From assembly GCA_019055375.1 (NCBI GenBank), contig JAHQIW010004455.1:1-64000 (forward strand): a stretch of 64,000 bases of DNA. The letters are read 5' to 3'. How positions within the stretch are numbered: position 1 is the first letter of the stretch; every line of letters starts with the position of its first letter. The position numbers and the translations under genes are program-made. Below the pieces are notes generated by a model. That model ran no database searches. It saw only the letters and a program-made list of their open reading frames with translations, and was not told where the DNA came from. Of the stretch, positions 1,585 through 53,539 are shown piece by piece. This stretch comes from Parelaphostrongylus tenuis. Taxonomy: Eukaryota; Nematoda; Chromadorea; Rhabditida; Metastrongylidae.

Positions 1585-2097
1585 ACGTCTATAATGCACT
1601 TGAGATAAGCATCCCTTTTCTAACCTATGATTGTTGTAGAATTATCACATCAATAAACTGCCAAATCGTAAAGTGTTGATTAGCCAGATTAATGCAATAA
1701 ACTACATCAAAGTGTGTGCAATGTAATAGCTTTCGAAATTCACGCTCTTTTTGGGGAGCAACTGAAAGATTCGAAAACAGAAAATTGGTATAGAAGGATC
1801 TTCTACTCGTTAGTTTTTTTTTTAAAGTATCGGAAAAGTTCACTTTTCTCCGATATACTCTAGATTACAGCAATAGAACACCTGCTTGAATGAGGAAACA
1901 AAGATTAGTCTTCTCTTTCTCTCTCTCATTTCGCATTGGATGTTGAGATAACGAAAGAACGCCTAGAGGACATTAGACTCTATCGTTCATCATCTGATAA
2001 AAAATTTTAGAAACATCGAAAAGTGGATAGTGAAATGGGTGGCAATAGCAAGTTCGGCCGGTTCAAAACCTTCCGTTATTTCTCAGCTGAAACTTGA

Positions 2098-2116
2098 CCC
2101 CCCCCCCCCCCCCCCC
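2098..2116. repeat. Poly-C tract (19 C)
   Basis: Uninterrupted run of 19 C in otherwise AT-rich DNA. It is likely to be length-variable and hard to assemble. Confidence 0.95.
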
Positions 2117-3469
2117 ATCATGCCCCGTCACAATACCTACTTATTGAAACCCATAAGTTGGTGTGCAATGATGATCATACGTCTCCTGATCCATCAAAAT
2201 CTGAAGTTAGACCCATCATCTGCCGTGTGGACATGCCAAAGGATAGGATAACGTGGTTTTTAACTTAATACTAATCCAACTACTAGAACACATTACAGCC
2301 TATCTCACCAACACCCAATATTCATTGATGTTCAAAGAATAATGTATTCGAGCAATCACAAAAAGAATTCGACAATGTGAAACAAAGCATCAGACGGAAT
2401 TTTAGATTAGACATATTCAAAATCGATAATAATTATTGAAATTGCATGAATTCTTTGTCGACTGAGTCTGTAGCACAAGGTTGCCAATGAGAACTTGTTA
2501 CTCGGCTAGCGTTTGGACCTTTTTCAAAGGCAATAGTGCGGAGGAGCGTGTAAAAACGTTTACATCAGCTGGGATTCTAACCAAGATCTCACTCGTTCTG
2601 GGAGCGCGTGTTGAACCGCCGAACTACCAACGCCTGTTTCATAGGTTTTTTTTGAGAATAATAGGAACTTGTAAAATACGAATTATATTACTTCTTTTTG
2701 GTTCCCCCAGATCATACTACAAGATGCTTTGAAACCTCTCTCCATATCGCTAGATTAAGTTCAACGTATGACAGCCATTACTTCAGAACATCGAATATCC
2801 AGGTCACAATGGAGACCGCCTGCAGATCAGCGATCAGTTTTGATCAGTTTTGCTCTGAACAAGACGAAGGCAACAAAACATTAACAGAATGGCACCTGTT
2901 ATCAGCCTCGTATTAGTTCAATGATGCAAAAAATCATTGGTTGTTCATGCCTAAGTCAAACAACACTCGAGGTTGTAGCGGAGCCGCCCGACGCTCAACA
3001 TTTCAACAAACACACACGCAATAGCTTTTAAATTTAATCATCGCTCGTAAAAAACTCCCAACATGGCCCGTGATTTAAAAGCTCTGGAGATGTTTTCAAA
3101 TTCTTATTCGCCGAAGACGAGAAGAATTTCTTGCATTCCAACTAGGGGCAATAAAAGAAACGTTTTGGAAATATGTAGAATTTTCCGCTCAACATATTTC
3201 ATCGGTCATTACTTGACTGCAACTCTCATAGTGGAACGAATGTTTTCCAGAGCGCCGGTTTAATCTGTTTGAGGTTCAGCCGTACTGAGCTATCCAAGGT
3301 TCGATATCCAATCTAACATGTGGTATACAGCAATTTTATGAGCCGGAGAACGAGTGCTGCTCTTTTCCATTATTAAAAATGTTTGAATCACATTGAATGC
3401 AATTCTTTCTCTTGTAAGACAAGGCAAAATTTGCTAATAAGTGCTGCTTCAAAAAGATTATTTCAAGAA

Positions 3470-3700: not shown

Positions 3701-3866
3701 AGAGATCGTATCACCGCTAGCAGCGGTTAAGTAAGAAAAGTTCTTTCGACCGCTTGAATAGACCTTTTTCAAAGCATATTATCAAGACATAACATAACAT
3801 TTTGAATCTGATAACATATCTGAGCATGTTATGCCGTCTGATATGGTTCTTGTACAGTGCTAAAGA

Positions 3867-3897
3867 GACGCCTGTTTCCTCCTTCTGGACTCTTCAG
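3867..3897 (-). other. Decayed hammerhead ribozyme core
   Basis: On the minus strand: CTGAAGA (3,891-3,897), a three-pair stem II (TCC/GGA) with an AGAA loop, then GAAAC and a GTC cleavage triplet. The 10.1-11.1 pair is G-G and stem I no longer pairs, so activity is not expected. Flanking sequence resembles that around the intact hammerhead at 18.9 kb, so this looks like an old copy of the same repeat. Confidence 0.45.
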
Positions 3898-4394
3898 TAG
3901 GTCAGCCTCTCTCGATTCAGCGACTGTGCGACTGAGGAGAACAACGTCCCTGTACTTGACTATTCAGCTGCATTAGCAATTTTACTAAGACGTAGAATTT
4001 TCTCCCTCACGACGGGACCTGACGCTTTCACAGTTTCTTTCTTCTATGACTGGTTTTGGCACGGTTACCCTTTTGCCTCCTCATATGAATGAATTCTTGG
4101 TCACATCTCAGTATCGCTCGTCCCTGAATCATTTGATGAGACTTTATGTAGGTTCCTGATTTTGGCATCGGATTGACATCAGTCGACCACTCCATCAAGG
4201 AAGAAGATTTTTTAGACGCACTTAATGTGAGGGGCTAACGAAAACATCAAAACTTCACGAGCACTTTCTTGTTTTCTCAGAAATCATCTTTTACATTTTT
4301 TTCTCTTAGACATGCAATTGGAATTTCGCCGTCTTGATAATTGCTATTATTTACTCTGGGGAATGTCGGAATTTCATGTCACATCATCAAAAAT

Positions 4395-17900: not shown

Positions 17901-18559
17901 GTTGGGTATCAAAATGCTCAAAACAGTAAGAAACAATAAGTATCAGCAATTTGTGGTGCGTTTACTGATACGGTTTACTTGTGTACAGCCGAGATTTTCT
18001 ATGATTCACCAAGCCTATTTTTCTCATAAAGATCGATGAGCTGGCAAGTTGAGCAAGATGGAAATCAATTTTGCGGGTGGGACTTGGCAAATGAATTTCA
18101 GTCAACTTATGAATGCTATCTTTAGATTTTCCATCTCATCGACTGTTTATGAAACCTCGTTAGAAACATTCAATAGAGTCTCTAAGTCTGCTCACAAAAG
18201 AAGAAAGCTAAGAAGCCAAAGTTAAAGGTTTTTATCACCATAAATAACGTCTCCCCATCGGCTGATATAAAGTAGGGTTCACTGTGGAGGTGGGCCATGA
18301 GGAGGAGGGCAACACTGAAACGTACGTGTGGCTCTGACGTGACAACCTCGTTAAGGCTTCAGACATTCTTACAGAATTTGAATTTTGCTTATCGAACAAA
18401 CTTCTGGGACGAGGTTGTTGATAAAAAAATCATTAGGCTAACATTTTGACGACTTGTCTATCAGAGCTGATGACTCAATTGATCACCCATCGCCGTTCGT
18501 CATCGTTGTGATTTTCCACCTTTGTTTCCTTCAAACGAATCTTCTTTAAGAATGTTGCC

Positions 18560-18840
18560 CGAACATAGCAAATCACTTTCATCGACTGATTGGCTGATTG
18601 GTATAAGTTTCATCCCGTATATAAGGAGTTTGCCGAGTTAGTTTCTTTATTCGAGAGGTGCTCCACCAAAAAAGGTGCATTTGAGACGAAACAAAGGCGG
18701 ATATTTATAACGAGAACGAACAGCAGTGGATACTCGAGCTGAAATTGGTTTTGAAAAGACGATGCGCGTCCGAAACGTTTGCCGAATGAGAATTTTCATG
18801 CACAATATTGTGCTACAGGCTTAATAAAAAAAATATGTTT
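18560..18840 (+). repeat. Interspersed repeat with CGAAACG box (also at 32,930-33,155)
   Basis: The two copies share a 3' part with GAAGACG or AAGACG, then CGAAACG- or GAACGTT-like, TTGTGCTA, AGGCTT and an A-rich end. A CGAAACG box near the 3' end is typical of Penelope-like elements and retrozymes, but no ORF supports a class. Confidence 0.4.
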
Positions 18841-18919
18841 TTTTCGACTGTTTTTGAGACCCTGCTTGAAAAAATGTAATCTAATAAAATACTTTGAGTC
18901 TATCATGAGGTCTGTTATG

Positions 18920-18978
18920 GCACCTGTTTAGTGCAAGACACGTGTTTCGGCCTTTCAGCCTCATCAGTTGCACAGTGC
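18920..18978 (-). ncRNA. Hammerhead self-cleaving ribozyme (minimal, short stem III)
   Basis: On the minus strand every invariant element is present: CTGATGA (18,961-18,967); stem II of four pairs, GGCT/GGCC, with a GAAA tetraloop (18,949-18,960); GAA (18,946-18,948); a palindromic stem III, ACAC/GTGT (18,938-18,945); and the cleavage triplet GUC ending at 18,937. Stem I pairs six perfect bases (18,931-18,936 with 18,968-18,973), then an asymmetric internal loop, then four more pairs (18,920-18,923 with 18,975-18,978). The predicted cut is between 18,937 and 18,936. Stem III has no loop, as in the hammerheads of Penelope-like elements and retrozymes, which tend to act as dimers. It sits in an interspersed repeat with decayed copies at 3.87 and 36.5 kb. 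Confidence 0.88.
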
Positions 18979-19279
18979 TCCTCGGTTCACTCAGTCCCTT
19001 GCAAGGGATTATACCTCTTACATACAAAGGAACTGACGCCAAATTAGTCACATCTGTTGCAAAATGATAACATCACCCAGTGGACAGTGTTGAATACTCG
19101 ATTGCTTGTGTCTGGTGAAACGTATATCGTCACACGTTTATTTTCGGGTGCTTTTGAGACCTCGCTCAAAACAATATAATCTGATAATGAATTGATCCAT
19201 ATCATCTACGGTTTTACAAACTTCGTTATAAACTTGAATATAATCTGTGTAATTGTTAACGAAACTAGCCCTTTGGGGG

Positions 19280-21100
19280 ATCGTGAAGGTCTTCCTGATG
19301 CTCACCGCGCGACGTCAAATCTCATTCTGCCGCAATGACTAAGATTAAGTGTGCATAGTTTGTCTAACCTTCCTTCTTTGAAATATCGTGAACTTTCCAG
19401 CGCTTGTTCACTTTTCAAGGCTTGGGTCTCCCGGCCGTCTAGAATTTTATGTATTGCTAACAATCTGTCTATGCGTGATGATTGCATGGATGTTCGTTTG
19501 TCCAGACAAAGCAACGCTATAGAACGAGTCTCGTGCTTCTACAAACAGCGAAGGCAAAGTGAAAGCAGTGATCCGGAAGTGAGTTGACTATCTCAGTAAT
19601 AACTACTGCTGTTTTTTTTTGCATGAACTGTTTGTTGTAAGAATGACCGTGGAAGTTTGGCTCAAATCAGTATAGCTCTGAAAGAAGCGAACGTACTAAC
19701 GTTGGCCATAGTGAGGCGTTCCATAGTAACATCATGCAATTTCATCTGTTGTAATATAAGTTATGTGCTTTTACTGAAGTTGTAATGGGCAATGTTAGTA
19801 TTTTATGTTGGGTGTGACTACCGCTGTCCAACCCAATTTCTCCAAAATGTGGAGACTTGACTTTGCAGTGTGCGATGGCCTCTTAATGTATAAAGTGTCT
19901 GTCGAAACATCATTTTGTGGTAGCCCGTTCAATTGGAAGCTGAGAGATGGTGCTGCGCCTGTATCCAAATGTTTACTAAAGCTACTAGAATATTGTTTAA
20001 CATAACACAGTCCTTTAGCAATAATTCCATTCAAAATAGGAGAAGCTGAATGAAACAACAGTGAAGAAGAATTTATAGGAGAGAATTCGTCTGGAACACA
20101 AACACAATGGTTAATGATCAAGCACTATCTATATAATCAGTTGTTCCTTATCAACGTAGAGCAATACATTTCCCCTAACCTCTGTCCATAATTTCATGCG
20201 CGACGACTGTTCTCTCGGGCTTGAGAAACTTGGCTAATTTTATCATTAAAAGAAATTTACCTTACTTCATAGCGAATTAACACGTTACAATAAAAAGTTA
20301 TCCGAATTCATAAGTAGAAACACTGAAAATCTCTACTTATCCAGCACATTATTCCCAATATAGCTCCCTAAATATTGTTACTTTCAGGCCCACAAGAGAA
20401 GTCTGTGAAAGTGATTTTGACTACGAGATAGAGTTAACACATTATCCGCGGTTTATTCGTTTTTATTTTTGTCAGAGTTCTGTAAAAATTGCATCAAATA
20501 CGTGCACATTGATTAGAGGAACTCCTCAAAACACATTGCATCGGTTAGTGGTTCGATCCGCCTTTGGGACCACTAAACTCTCCTTTCGATATAGGCAAGT
20601 CGGCTATGATTTGTCTACAAGAATAGCTAAACTGAGTTCAACATCAAAAGCCTACCGCAACCGTCATCAGTCAAATATCTATTGAATCATCTCGACGGTG
20701 GTTTAATAATGTTGAGCACATGGAGATATGTTCAAAGAAGCATAAAGCAGGCAACTGAATTGAATGAATATAATAGAGTCTTTAATTTGGTGTCTAATTC
20801 TACTGTAATACCCGTTCTAGCTGATCATGTTGAACCTCTCAATGCTTTTATCTTTGTAATCATTCTCTATCAGTGTCTTTATGGCCAGTGCTACCTCCAT
20901 CGTTTTTCGAACTGTGAGCAAGGAACATGTTTTTTCTATTTTATATTTGCACATTTCTTAGAAATTTTTTCAAAGAAAGCACAAGCTCTAAATAAACCGC
21001 AGTGTACATCTGAAAGTAGTTTACCACAATACTCTGACTATCATCAGAATTAGATTTGTAAGTTCATCTTCTGTAATGCTACGATAAAGTGTGCTCAAAT
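19280..21100. other. No recognisable gene
   Basis: The longest open frames are 20,682-21,053 (+, 123 codons), which has no signal peptide or known motif, and 19,795-20,121 (-). Neither shows splice context or a second copy. I see no supported feature. Confidence 0.5.
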
Positions 21101-35636: not shown

Positions 35637-35707
35637 AACATTGGCCAGAAATCGAACCCGGGTCACTCGCGCGGCAGGCGAGCATTCTACCACTAAACCA
35701 CCAATGC
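35637..35707 (-). tRNA. tRNA-Gly(GCC)-like gene, possibly a pseudogene
   Basis: On the minus strand: acceptor GCATTGG/CCAATGT (one G-T pair); A-box TGGTTTAGTGG; anticodon stem CTCGC/GCGAG perfect, with loop CTGCCGC and anticodon GCC; T arm CCGGG-TTCGATT-TCTGG with two G-T pairs. Length and all arms are normal for eukaryotic tRNA-Gly-GCC. Weak points are the softened T stem, a T at the discriminator position and no clear T-run terminator. It lies next to a SINE-like repeat, so a retroposed copy is possible. Confidence 0.7.
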
Positions 35708-36439: not shown

Positions 36440-36600
36440 ATAATAGTCTGATAATATGATAGCATGTTTTGAGCCTTTTATGTAGTCTGATATGTCGCTT
36501 ATACAATAATAAAGAGGCCCATTTCGCCTTTCCAGGTGTCAGTAGTACAGTGCCTTTCGATTCAGCCGATCCTAGTGGGATATAACCTTACTTATAAAGA
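36440..36600 (-). other. Decayed copy of the hammerhead-bearing repeat
   Basis: It shares AGTCTGATATG- and GGGATATAACCTTAC-like blocks with the region around 18.9 kb. The ribozyme site (36,513-36,542) keeps CTGA, a CCT/AGG stem and CGAAA, but CTGATGA reads CTGACAC and the GTC triplet is lost. Confidence 0.4.
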
Positions 36601-36935: not shown

Positions 36936-38399
36936 TTTAGTGAAAAATCCCACATAAGAAAATGTAGTATAATATGTATGAGAGTTATCCTGTGCTCAAT
37001 AAAGTTACACAAAAATTTCTTACAACCGTAGTAAAGTTTTCCCACTTCTCGTATAACTTAACTCCCACCTACCACCTAGCATACGGTGATTTGTCATTCG
37101 GCCTTGATTTCTTTGAGCAGAGGTATATTCATGCAGAGGATCGGCTGAACCGAAAGACACTGGCCAGTGATGAGCCTGGAAAGACGAAACAGTCCTATAC
37201 AGCAGTAACTATGTGACATGCCAGACCTCTTGAAAGGCTAAAAACTTGCTCAATGTACTTTATACTTCAGTTTATTTTTCAAAAAAAAAATTTTATAGAG
37301 TGCTGCAGCATCGCAAATATGATCACCACTAAAATTGACGCCGCTTACTCACCACTCATTCCTCAATATCTTTGTATAATACCTATCAGCGACCAATCAA
37401 CAGATTTGCTTGACAATATCGCTTCATAACCAGTTAAGCTGACAGCGATTGTACTAAATAATTCCAAGAATTCTTATGTTTTTACTGCTTTTTTGGAAGT
37501 GCTTGAGATGTTTCGAGTTTTCCCAATAGAATGAGTGGTAAGCAAAATCCGACCTCAGACGGGAAACGAACCGTGTTCCATTCATACCGGTAAAGCAGAG
37601 ATTCTTTTACAATTTCGGGGCGAAAAGCCAAAAATTGCTTTAGTGCAAAAGAAACATTTTCACATAGAAGGCGAAAATATACGCGTTCACTTGCGCCGCG
37701 TGTGAAGCTGTTTTATTTTCACAGATACAGCGCAGTAAAGACGTCTTCTCAAGAACAAGTACACCCTTGAAATCACAAAGAAGCTTTGAAGAATTACTAA
37801 TAATCCAGTAGAAATTTTTGCGCTTGACTAGAGTTTCTTTTATATATTTTCGAATTTTTGGTGCGGAATAAAACATTCCCTGGACGGCAAGGATGAGACG
37901 CAGATAGGAAGGTTGGTGTAGCGAAATAAACCAGCAGAAAGAAAGTCACTATATGGATTATGTTGTCTGGTCCGAACTAATCAAAATTGTGTAAAATACA
38001 CGGTGTCCGTTACAAACTGATGCAATTTCCACTAACTTATTGCTTAACTTACAGAGACACCTCAAGTAAGCTAGGATTCTGACCTAATGACCTTTTGAAA
38101 GACCATCAACCATACATTGCTGATGAATTGTTGAAAGAATTATTCACGGAATAACTTTAGGATATATCTCCACCTTACAAGCTTGTCATAGACTCAATTC
38201 AACTAAACTAGGAAAACTACCAACAGGCACCTCCTAAAAAACCGGTTTATATCAGATGCTGCAATGAATTATGGATTCAGCAAGAGCTTGGCTGCCGTTG
38301 GTGGCTTCTATTTAAGTGAAAGCTTCGAATTTAGTACTTGAGGAGACTAAAAAACAAAAACAGAGAACGACGAGTAACGAGCGACAGAAAGCACAACGA

Positions 38400-53024: not shown

Positions 53025-53539
53025 CTCTGTAGATAGGTCGCTGTGCGGATTGCAGGCTGACTTTTCACCGACATCGCCTTCTTCAGAGCCTGGACGTACG
53101 CTGTTTTCGATATATGTATGAGCTGGTAATCAGACCGATGCATAGGCACCGCCCCTCGGAACAAGTCAGAATATCAAGCGCATGTATGATGCTTGGTCTT
53201 GTGTTACAGTGAAGCACTCATCCCTACGGTTCATATTGGGTTTTTAGCGTTTATACGGAACGCTTCGAAAGTTTTGCGTGTTGATGTTTTGAAGTCCCGA
53301 ACCAGGGTTTCGACAGTTACATCAAAATCATTATTGCTGTGTTTTTGTGCCCTGTGTAGACCTAGAGGTTTGTTTGTACCAACCTCTCACAGGCTAAAAA
53401 GTTAAGTTTCCATAATTGAATTGGTAATAAAGAGGATTTTTCAAAAATTTAACATATTCTTGAAATCGTAGAAGTTTAAGCTCCTGAGTGATTATCAGAT
53501 CTTTAAGACAAGTTTGTCCAGTGAGAAAGGCTTTCAAAC

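Follow-up and report, generated by a model that had tools for sequence, protein, structure and literature searches.

A predicted hammerhead ribozyme in a non-coding nematode repeat with Penelope-type insertion ends

What kind of repeat carries the hammerhead motif found on the minus strand of this contig, and by which enzyme could such a repeat have been spread? The window, which is the whole stretch of 64,000 nucleotides analysed here, corresponds to positions 1-64000 of contig C2922 in the genome searched (481.5 Mb in 5105 contigs). The locus holds an old copy of a non-coding hammerhead repeat, with a unit of 300 nt, that was probably spread by the Penelope-like reverse transcriptase and endonuclease of the same nematode, because insertions of the repeat and of the Penelope-like elements have the same unusual ends in this genome.

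The initial annotation described a canonical hammerhead on the minus strand, and every element that it named is present at exactly the position given. The features of the motif are listed below.

18920..18978, minus strand: hammerhead of type I, outer portion of stem I included, by direct reading of the sequence
18931..18973, minus strand: match to Rfam RF00163, 34.8 bits, by Infernal
18936..18937, minus strand: predicted self-cleavage site, after the C of GUC, position read from the sequence

The core CUGAUGA...GAA is intact and the cleavage triplet is GUC. Stem II consists of GGCU/GGCC with the loop GAAA, and stem I of GUGCAA/UUGCAC with 6 of 6 pairs formed; beyond stem I lie an asymmetric internal loop (1 x 7) and the outer pairing GCAC/GUGC. 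In stem III, ACAC pairs with GUGU, four pairs without a loop. Four pairs lacking a loop cannot close within one RNA strand, and a dimer would therefore be needed for the four-pair form; the stem III of a monomer would comprise two pairs and a palindromic ACGU tetraloop.

The Infernal match was obtained in a 2-kb scan, covers the whole model with an E-value of 1.9e-6 and lies above the gathering cut-off of 34 bits, as had been expected of a covariance-model search; the motif thus passes the curated threshold and has the invariant core as well. A gathering scan of the whole window with the fast filters of Rfam did not list this match. By score the hammerhead is therefore borderline, and its identity is made secure by its repeat family. 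The genome contains one match to Rfam Hammerhead_3, which is under the cut-off of that model. A chance motif was ruled out, as a 24-nt part of the motif, with up to 3 mismatches allowed, has a single occurrence in the window and none in 100 shuffles, and the 31-nt core pattern of the family (up to 3 mismatches) is found at 2537 + 2510 = 5047 genome sites, as against 0 for the reversed pattern. Judged from its sequence, the motif is a predicted self-cutting hammerhead RNA.

The hammerhead belongs to a repeat termed family A. A 50-nt direct repeat flanks the motif at a spacing of 300 bp, and the extent of the copy was obtained by blastn against an iterated majority consensus made from loci fetched from the genome (loci are numbered L; consensus positions are prefixed c). 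The copy, its parts and further family A fragments in the window are as follows.

18838..19187, minus strand: repeat copy, 1.17 family A units (c251 to c600; unit 300 nt), by blastn against the consensus, 85% identity
18838..19137, minus strand: one full 300-nt unit, by direct repeat D2 (spacing 300)
19138..19187, minus strand: second, partial copy of the 3' end of the unit, 50 nt, 78% identical to 18838-18887, by direct repeat
18845..18913, minus strand: stem-loop after the ribozyme, with 5' arm AGACC and 3' arm GGTCT, then ACAGTCG, read from the sequence
36451..36599, minus strand: family A fragment, 72% identical to the consensus, head to head with 37096-37244
37096..37244, plus strand: family A fragment whose hammerhead has decayed (GTGATGA for CTGATGA), by sequence and consensus match
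3805..3898, minus strand: family A fragment, by consensus match, also with a family B match at 3856-3918

The window copy is old and has a GC content of 0.415. No reading frame of 110 aa or more lies over it, and no Penelope coding match occurs within 16 kb. Tandem Repeats Finder reported no array at the copy, and beside it neither an inverted partner nor a target duplication was found.

Only 24 of the 5047 genome sites have the exact 31-nt core, the window copy included. A second family, B, has a unit of 281 nt, the stem III AUAGGC/GCCUAU and 1177 + 1258 = 2435 genome sites (control, 0). Families A and B are clearly homologous after the ribozyme, with a global alignment score of 80 for the stem-loop that was attained by 0 of 2000 shuffles. 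A 301-base query found at least 54 genome places (40 of 3828 first-look candidates scored), and a genome search with RF00163 gave at least 20 matches over the cut-off among the 31 listed (74 of 119,811 candidates scored), the window copy not being among the matches listed. The proposal of a non-autonomous, interspersed, retrozyme-like repeat is upheld by the thousands of sites, by tandem units of 281-285 bp in family B and by the lack of such a frame over the copy.

Covariation of the stems inside family A was not above that of shuffles, and support for the hammerhead therefore rests across families. In five hammerhead types (A, B, C, D and F, one to three copies per type) stem I is 6/6 paired with differing letters, stem II is paired, and stem III is palindromic with 4-6 pairs; one B variant has 5/6. 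When units were folded as circles and compared with 100 shuffles, z was -6.0 for consensus A and -3.3 for consensus B; the fold of the decayed unit of the window was weak (z -1.75). Copies of family C are seen at L017, L036, L059, L063, L064 and L079, with a 5-pair palindromic stem III in the L017 copy.

The arrangement of copies was determined for the first 100 listed of the 2435 sites of family B, each of them an exact match. Within 1 kb, neighbours were minus-plus in 21 cases and plus-minus in 0, and the 18 same-strand pairs within 1 kb were every one 281-285 bp apart; arms of at least one unit thus lie head to head. The tandem copies that had been anticipated do exist, as direct tandems within an arm, but the arms commonly face each other. 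The 3' ends of the arms prefer two positions. The inner one, X, is situated about 60-70 nt past the ribozyme cut in family A and about 35-58 nt in family B; the outer one, Y, at about 95-110 nt (A) and 74-99 nt (B), lies about 40 nt beyond X. In the window these correspond to the following.

18867..18876, minus strand: family position X (c262-c271), inner preferred 3' end, placed via family coordinates
18828..18843, minus strand: family position Y (c295-c310), outer preferred 3' end, placed via family coordinates; the window copy stops at 18838

With bounds for X and Y that were fixed after the sequences had been seen, 14 of the 16 family A loci and 16 of the 17 family B loci with both arms classifiable had one X end and one Y end, 30 of 33 together. 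The exceptions (L054 and L059 in A, L003 in B) each have two X ends. Left out of the counts were L057, L007 and L005 (which overlap with, or are mirror images of, L041, L006 and L004), single-strand loci, loci with an unclassifiable arm (L048, L004, L014 and L031) and L061, which was unclassified.

Target duplications were sought in 18 of the 20 two-arm loci of family B (L004 and L031 not included). Exact direct repeats of at least 8 bp were found in 11 of 18 loci, compared with 10 of 306 mismatched pairs; they span 8-14 bp, 8 of the 11 being 11-14 bp long. As they flank the whole head-to-head block, the block represents one insertion. In family A repeats scoring at least 8 occurred in 2 of 18 loci and 14 of 306 controls, not above control, an absence that is put down to age. 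Arm starts showed no peak at the hammerhead cut, with 0 of 64 (A) and 2 of 56 (B) in the first 20 nt. This lack speaks against cut linear monomers as template and agrees with the report that hammerhead mutants left insertion in vitro unchanged (PMC11167929). Single-arm loci of family A (the window copy, L035, L038, L039, L040, L051 and L053) start around c236-c290, within or close to the X region, which would fit a cDNA that had halted on return to the start stem-loop.

Penelope-like elements of the same genome were examined in the same way. At least 150 GIY-YIG matches are present (150 of 1723 candidates scored), and a frame of 893 aa in L075 contains both RVT_1 and GIY-YIG, which identifies a Penelope-like element. 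In the elements read, the terminal repeats carry a minimal hammerhead, followed by the sequence with which the reading frame begins. The loopless stem III of the window motif had been likened to the Penelope form; its four pairs without a loop stand, but the form is not simply that of Penelope, which here has a stem III of 2 pairs and the core CUGAAGA. Opposite-strand GIY-YIG neighbours within 6 kb are minus-plus, that is head to head, in 20 of 20 cases. The ends were determined for 16 of these 20 pairs: one lies 56-72 nt and the other 103-125 nt past the hammerhead cut in 15 of 16, the exception being L089/L090, and the L075 element (contig C406), read by eye, also has one end of each kind. 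Exact target repeats of at least 8 bp were found in 14 of 16 pairs versus 6 of 240 controls.

Coding pieces of Penelope-like elements, representing a reverse transcriptase part and a GIY-YIG part, are also seen in the window at 1936-2318 (plus strand) and 53169-53374 (minus strand), with tblastn E-values of 1e-18 and 4e-14; they lie 17 and 34 kb from the hammerhead copy. In L017 (1399-3047) and L009 (991-2456) a broken Penelope-like frame has units of family B between its two pieces, as would be seen if these units had been inserted into an old Penelope-like element.

Such ends are known from elsewhere. In the Penelope element of Anolis reverse transcription begins at two adjacent internal sites that bound a 'tail', and both target strands are cut (PMC11167929); rotifer Penelope elements have head-to-head inverted pLTRs, an optional 31-bp tail and target duplications (PMC3846280). 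The nematode repeats resemble Penelope-like elements as described in these two sources in their head-to-head copies, in two 3' ends parted by a 'tail', in target duplications, in a hammerhead just ahead of the end region and in a short 3' word. They differ in lacking a reverse transcriptase or GIY-YIG frame, in a unit of about 300 nt and in a larger hammerhead with 4-6 pairs in stem III and 6 pairs in stem I. The combined reverse transcriptase and GIY-YIG frame is present in the L075 element and lacking in the window repeat. Inserts that stand head to head, one end being tailed, occur at the level of the family, not at the one-armed window copy. Because they occur at that level, the retrozyme family inserts like a Penelope-like element without being one.

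The stem-loops that follow the ribozyme in retrozymes and Penelope-like elements are alike in layout (ACCTC...GAGGT). Global alignment of the two did not reach significance (552 of 2000 shuffles scored as high for family A, 500 of 2000 for family B), nor did profile searches in both directions. The word CGAGGT-N6/7-A[AC]AGTCG, chosen after the sequences had been seen, gave 15 hits in the 256 kb of loci that had been fetched, where 0.03 were expected and the reversed control gave 0; as L041 overlaps with L057, the hits represent 14 distinct places. They lie in the A and C retrozymes, two Penelope families and one C-like fragment of the window, in all cases within stem-loops. When Penelope words were placed on the A unit, the best place lay between X and Y, with scores of 11 and 13 (next best, 4), and none of 300 shuffled A units had a place scoring as high. 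At the corresponding place of the B unit the second word scored best (5, next 3) and the first was tied with chance places (4). Sequence comparison therefore indicates a start site that is likely common to retrozyme and Penelope, or imitated, in a short core only. The fragment in the window is a lone 3' stem-loop arm, CGAGGT...ACAGTCG, of family C-like type at 18140-18166 on the minus strand, about 700 bp downstream of the hammerhead copy.

If the repeats were spread by the Penelope-like enzyme, multimeric transcripts would self-cleave at the hammerhead, to be closed into circles or kept multimeric. The enzyme would bind the stem-loop after the ribozyme (18845..18913 in the window copy), the insertion ends suggesting its role as start region. 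Both target strands would be cut, 8-14 bp apart, one cDNA being primed at X on one strand and a second at Y on the other. Each cDNA would run from a partial turn to several turns, and joining of the two at their far ends would give an insert with head-to-head arms and, on one side, a tail of about 40 nt. Which enzyme acts, and the circularity of the RNA, we infer. A wider relation is favoured with moderate confidence, namely that animal retrozymes stand to Penelope-like elements as SINEs do to LINEs: ribozyme RNA circles of 300 nt would imitate the Penelope start site, and one cDNA per nick, started from two fixed points of the RNA and running round the circle, would produce a palindromic insert. 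If true, parasite and helper would stand side by side in one nematode, with matching scars.

It is unlikely that the repeats are solo pLTRs or wrecks of autonomous Penelope-like elements and not a separate element. Such an origin would fit the common insertion anatomy and 3' word, and broken Penelope-like coding pieces do occur in 4 of 61 retrozyme loci (L009, L010, L017 and L029) and twice in the window. However, the Penelope pLTRs that were read (L065-L072, L075-L084) have the other hammerhead, with CUGAAGA and a 2-pair stem III, and other upstream sequence; 57 of the 61 loci (about 3 kb) contain no Penelope coding match at E 1e-3; the family B units of L017 and L009 split the broken frame as an insertion would; and the tandems of family B consist of its own unit, 281-285 bp in length. 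The wreck explanation is already weakened by these data. Movement by a LINE, in the manner of a SINE, has a very low probability. Any LINE would be a candidate, as animal retrozymes lack a polymerase, and the frames in L025 and L031 are presumably LINE-like, with Pfam giving RVT_1 under its cut-off as the only match in L025 and nothing in L031. The Nematostella repeats, with target duplications of 15 bp, have moreover been likened to LINEs (PMC4918200). Against a LINE stand the 3' ends at two fixed internal positions and the facing arms, one ending at X and one at Y; this anatomy is that of the Penelope-like elements in the same genome. Least probable of all is a satellite-like amplification by recombination with the hammerhead as a role-less relic, for which the tandem 281-285 bp units and the decay of family A could be cited, but which accords poorly with the scattering of the inserts, with the 8-14 bp target duplications that enclose the entire head-to-head block in family B and with a stem I kept 6/6 paired in five hammerhead types.

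By structure, the repeat is an animal non-LTR retrozyme. With those described by Cervera and de la Pena (2020, PMC7229834) it shares a type I hammerhead, units of about 300 nt, tandem copies, no open frame, a GC content of 0.42, thousands of sites, co-resident Penelope-like elements and a short stem III centred on a palindrome. Multi-copy units of 150-450 bp and tandems are both present, the window copy itself having only 1.17 units; a coding frame, high GC and an LTR are lacking, with Pfam applied to 10 of 82 long frames; and target duplications of more than 4 bp occur in family B, while neither family A nor the window copy shows them. The repeats of this nematode differ in their head-to-head arms and X/Y end rule, and the main text of PMC7229834 makes no mention of inverted, head-to-head or tail. 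What is new relative to the published animal retrozymes is the Penelope-type insertion anatomy. As movers of animal retrozymes, LINEs or Penelope-like elements have been named as candidates only (PMC7229834, PMC11722881). Here retrozymes and Penelope-like elements are abundant in one genome, and their scars agree in orientation, end positions and target duplication, which turns the question of the mover into a direct biochemical test.

Plant LTR retrozymes (PMC4918200) are likewise non-autonomous hammerhead elements with a proposed mobility through circular RNA; they differ in a type III hammerhead located in LTRs and in 4-bp target duplications. The window repeat does not belong with them, since its hammerhead has the type I topology and its terminal 50-nt repeat is an overlap of the unit. 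The hammerheads of Schistosoma Sm-alpha and of newt satellites (PMC6155905, PMC7229834), from other hosts and likened here by description, are also of type I and lie in repeats of a few hundred bp. In the literature searched, subscription papers being outside its scope, no description of nematode retrozymes was found; PMC11620745 mentions both words, and 'nematod' is absent from the main text of PMC7229834, PMC4918200, PMC7761336, PMC6155905 and PMC3088659. The present repeats extend retrozymes to nematodes.

The nematode host assumed in the initial annotation agrees with COX1, whose best matches are from Angiostrongylus (93-95% identity); the COX1 on a 13.6-kb contig, translated with the invertebrate mitochondrial code, is 89% identical to that of Caenorhabditis briggsae. 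Within the nematodes, the worm is probably a lungworm of the metastrongyloid superfamily. Decayed COX1 pieces with stops on contigs C1055, C1054, C3631 and C4114 are probably nuclear copies of mitochondrial DNA, and mitochondrial inserts are found no more than about 4 kb from the family C copies in L063 and L064. L033 (914-1750, contig C3834) and the window copy (18890-19684) have some 500 bp of upstream flank in common, at about 80% identity; the two may go back to one old insertion whose surroundings were duplicated. A tRNA-like match at 35637-35707 of the window, in a stretch that also matches several fetched loci, may be a tRNA-derived SINE.
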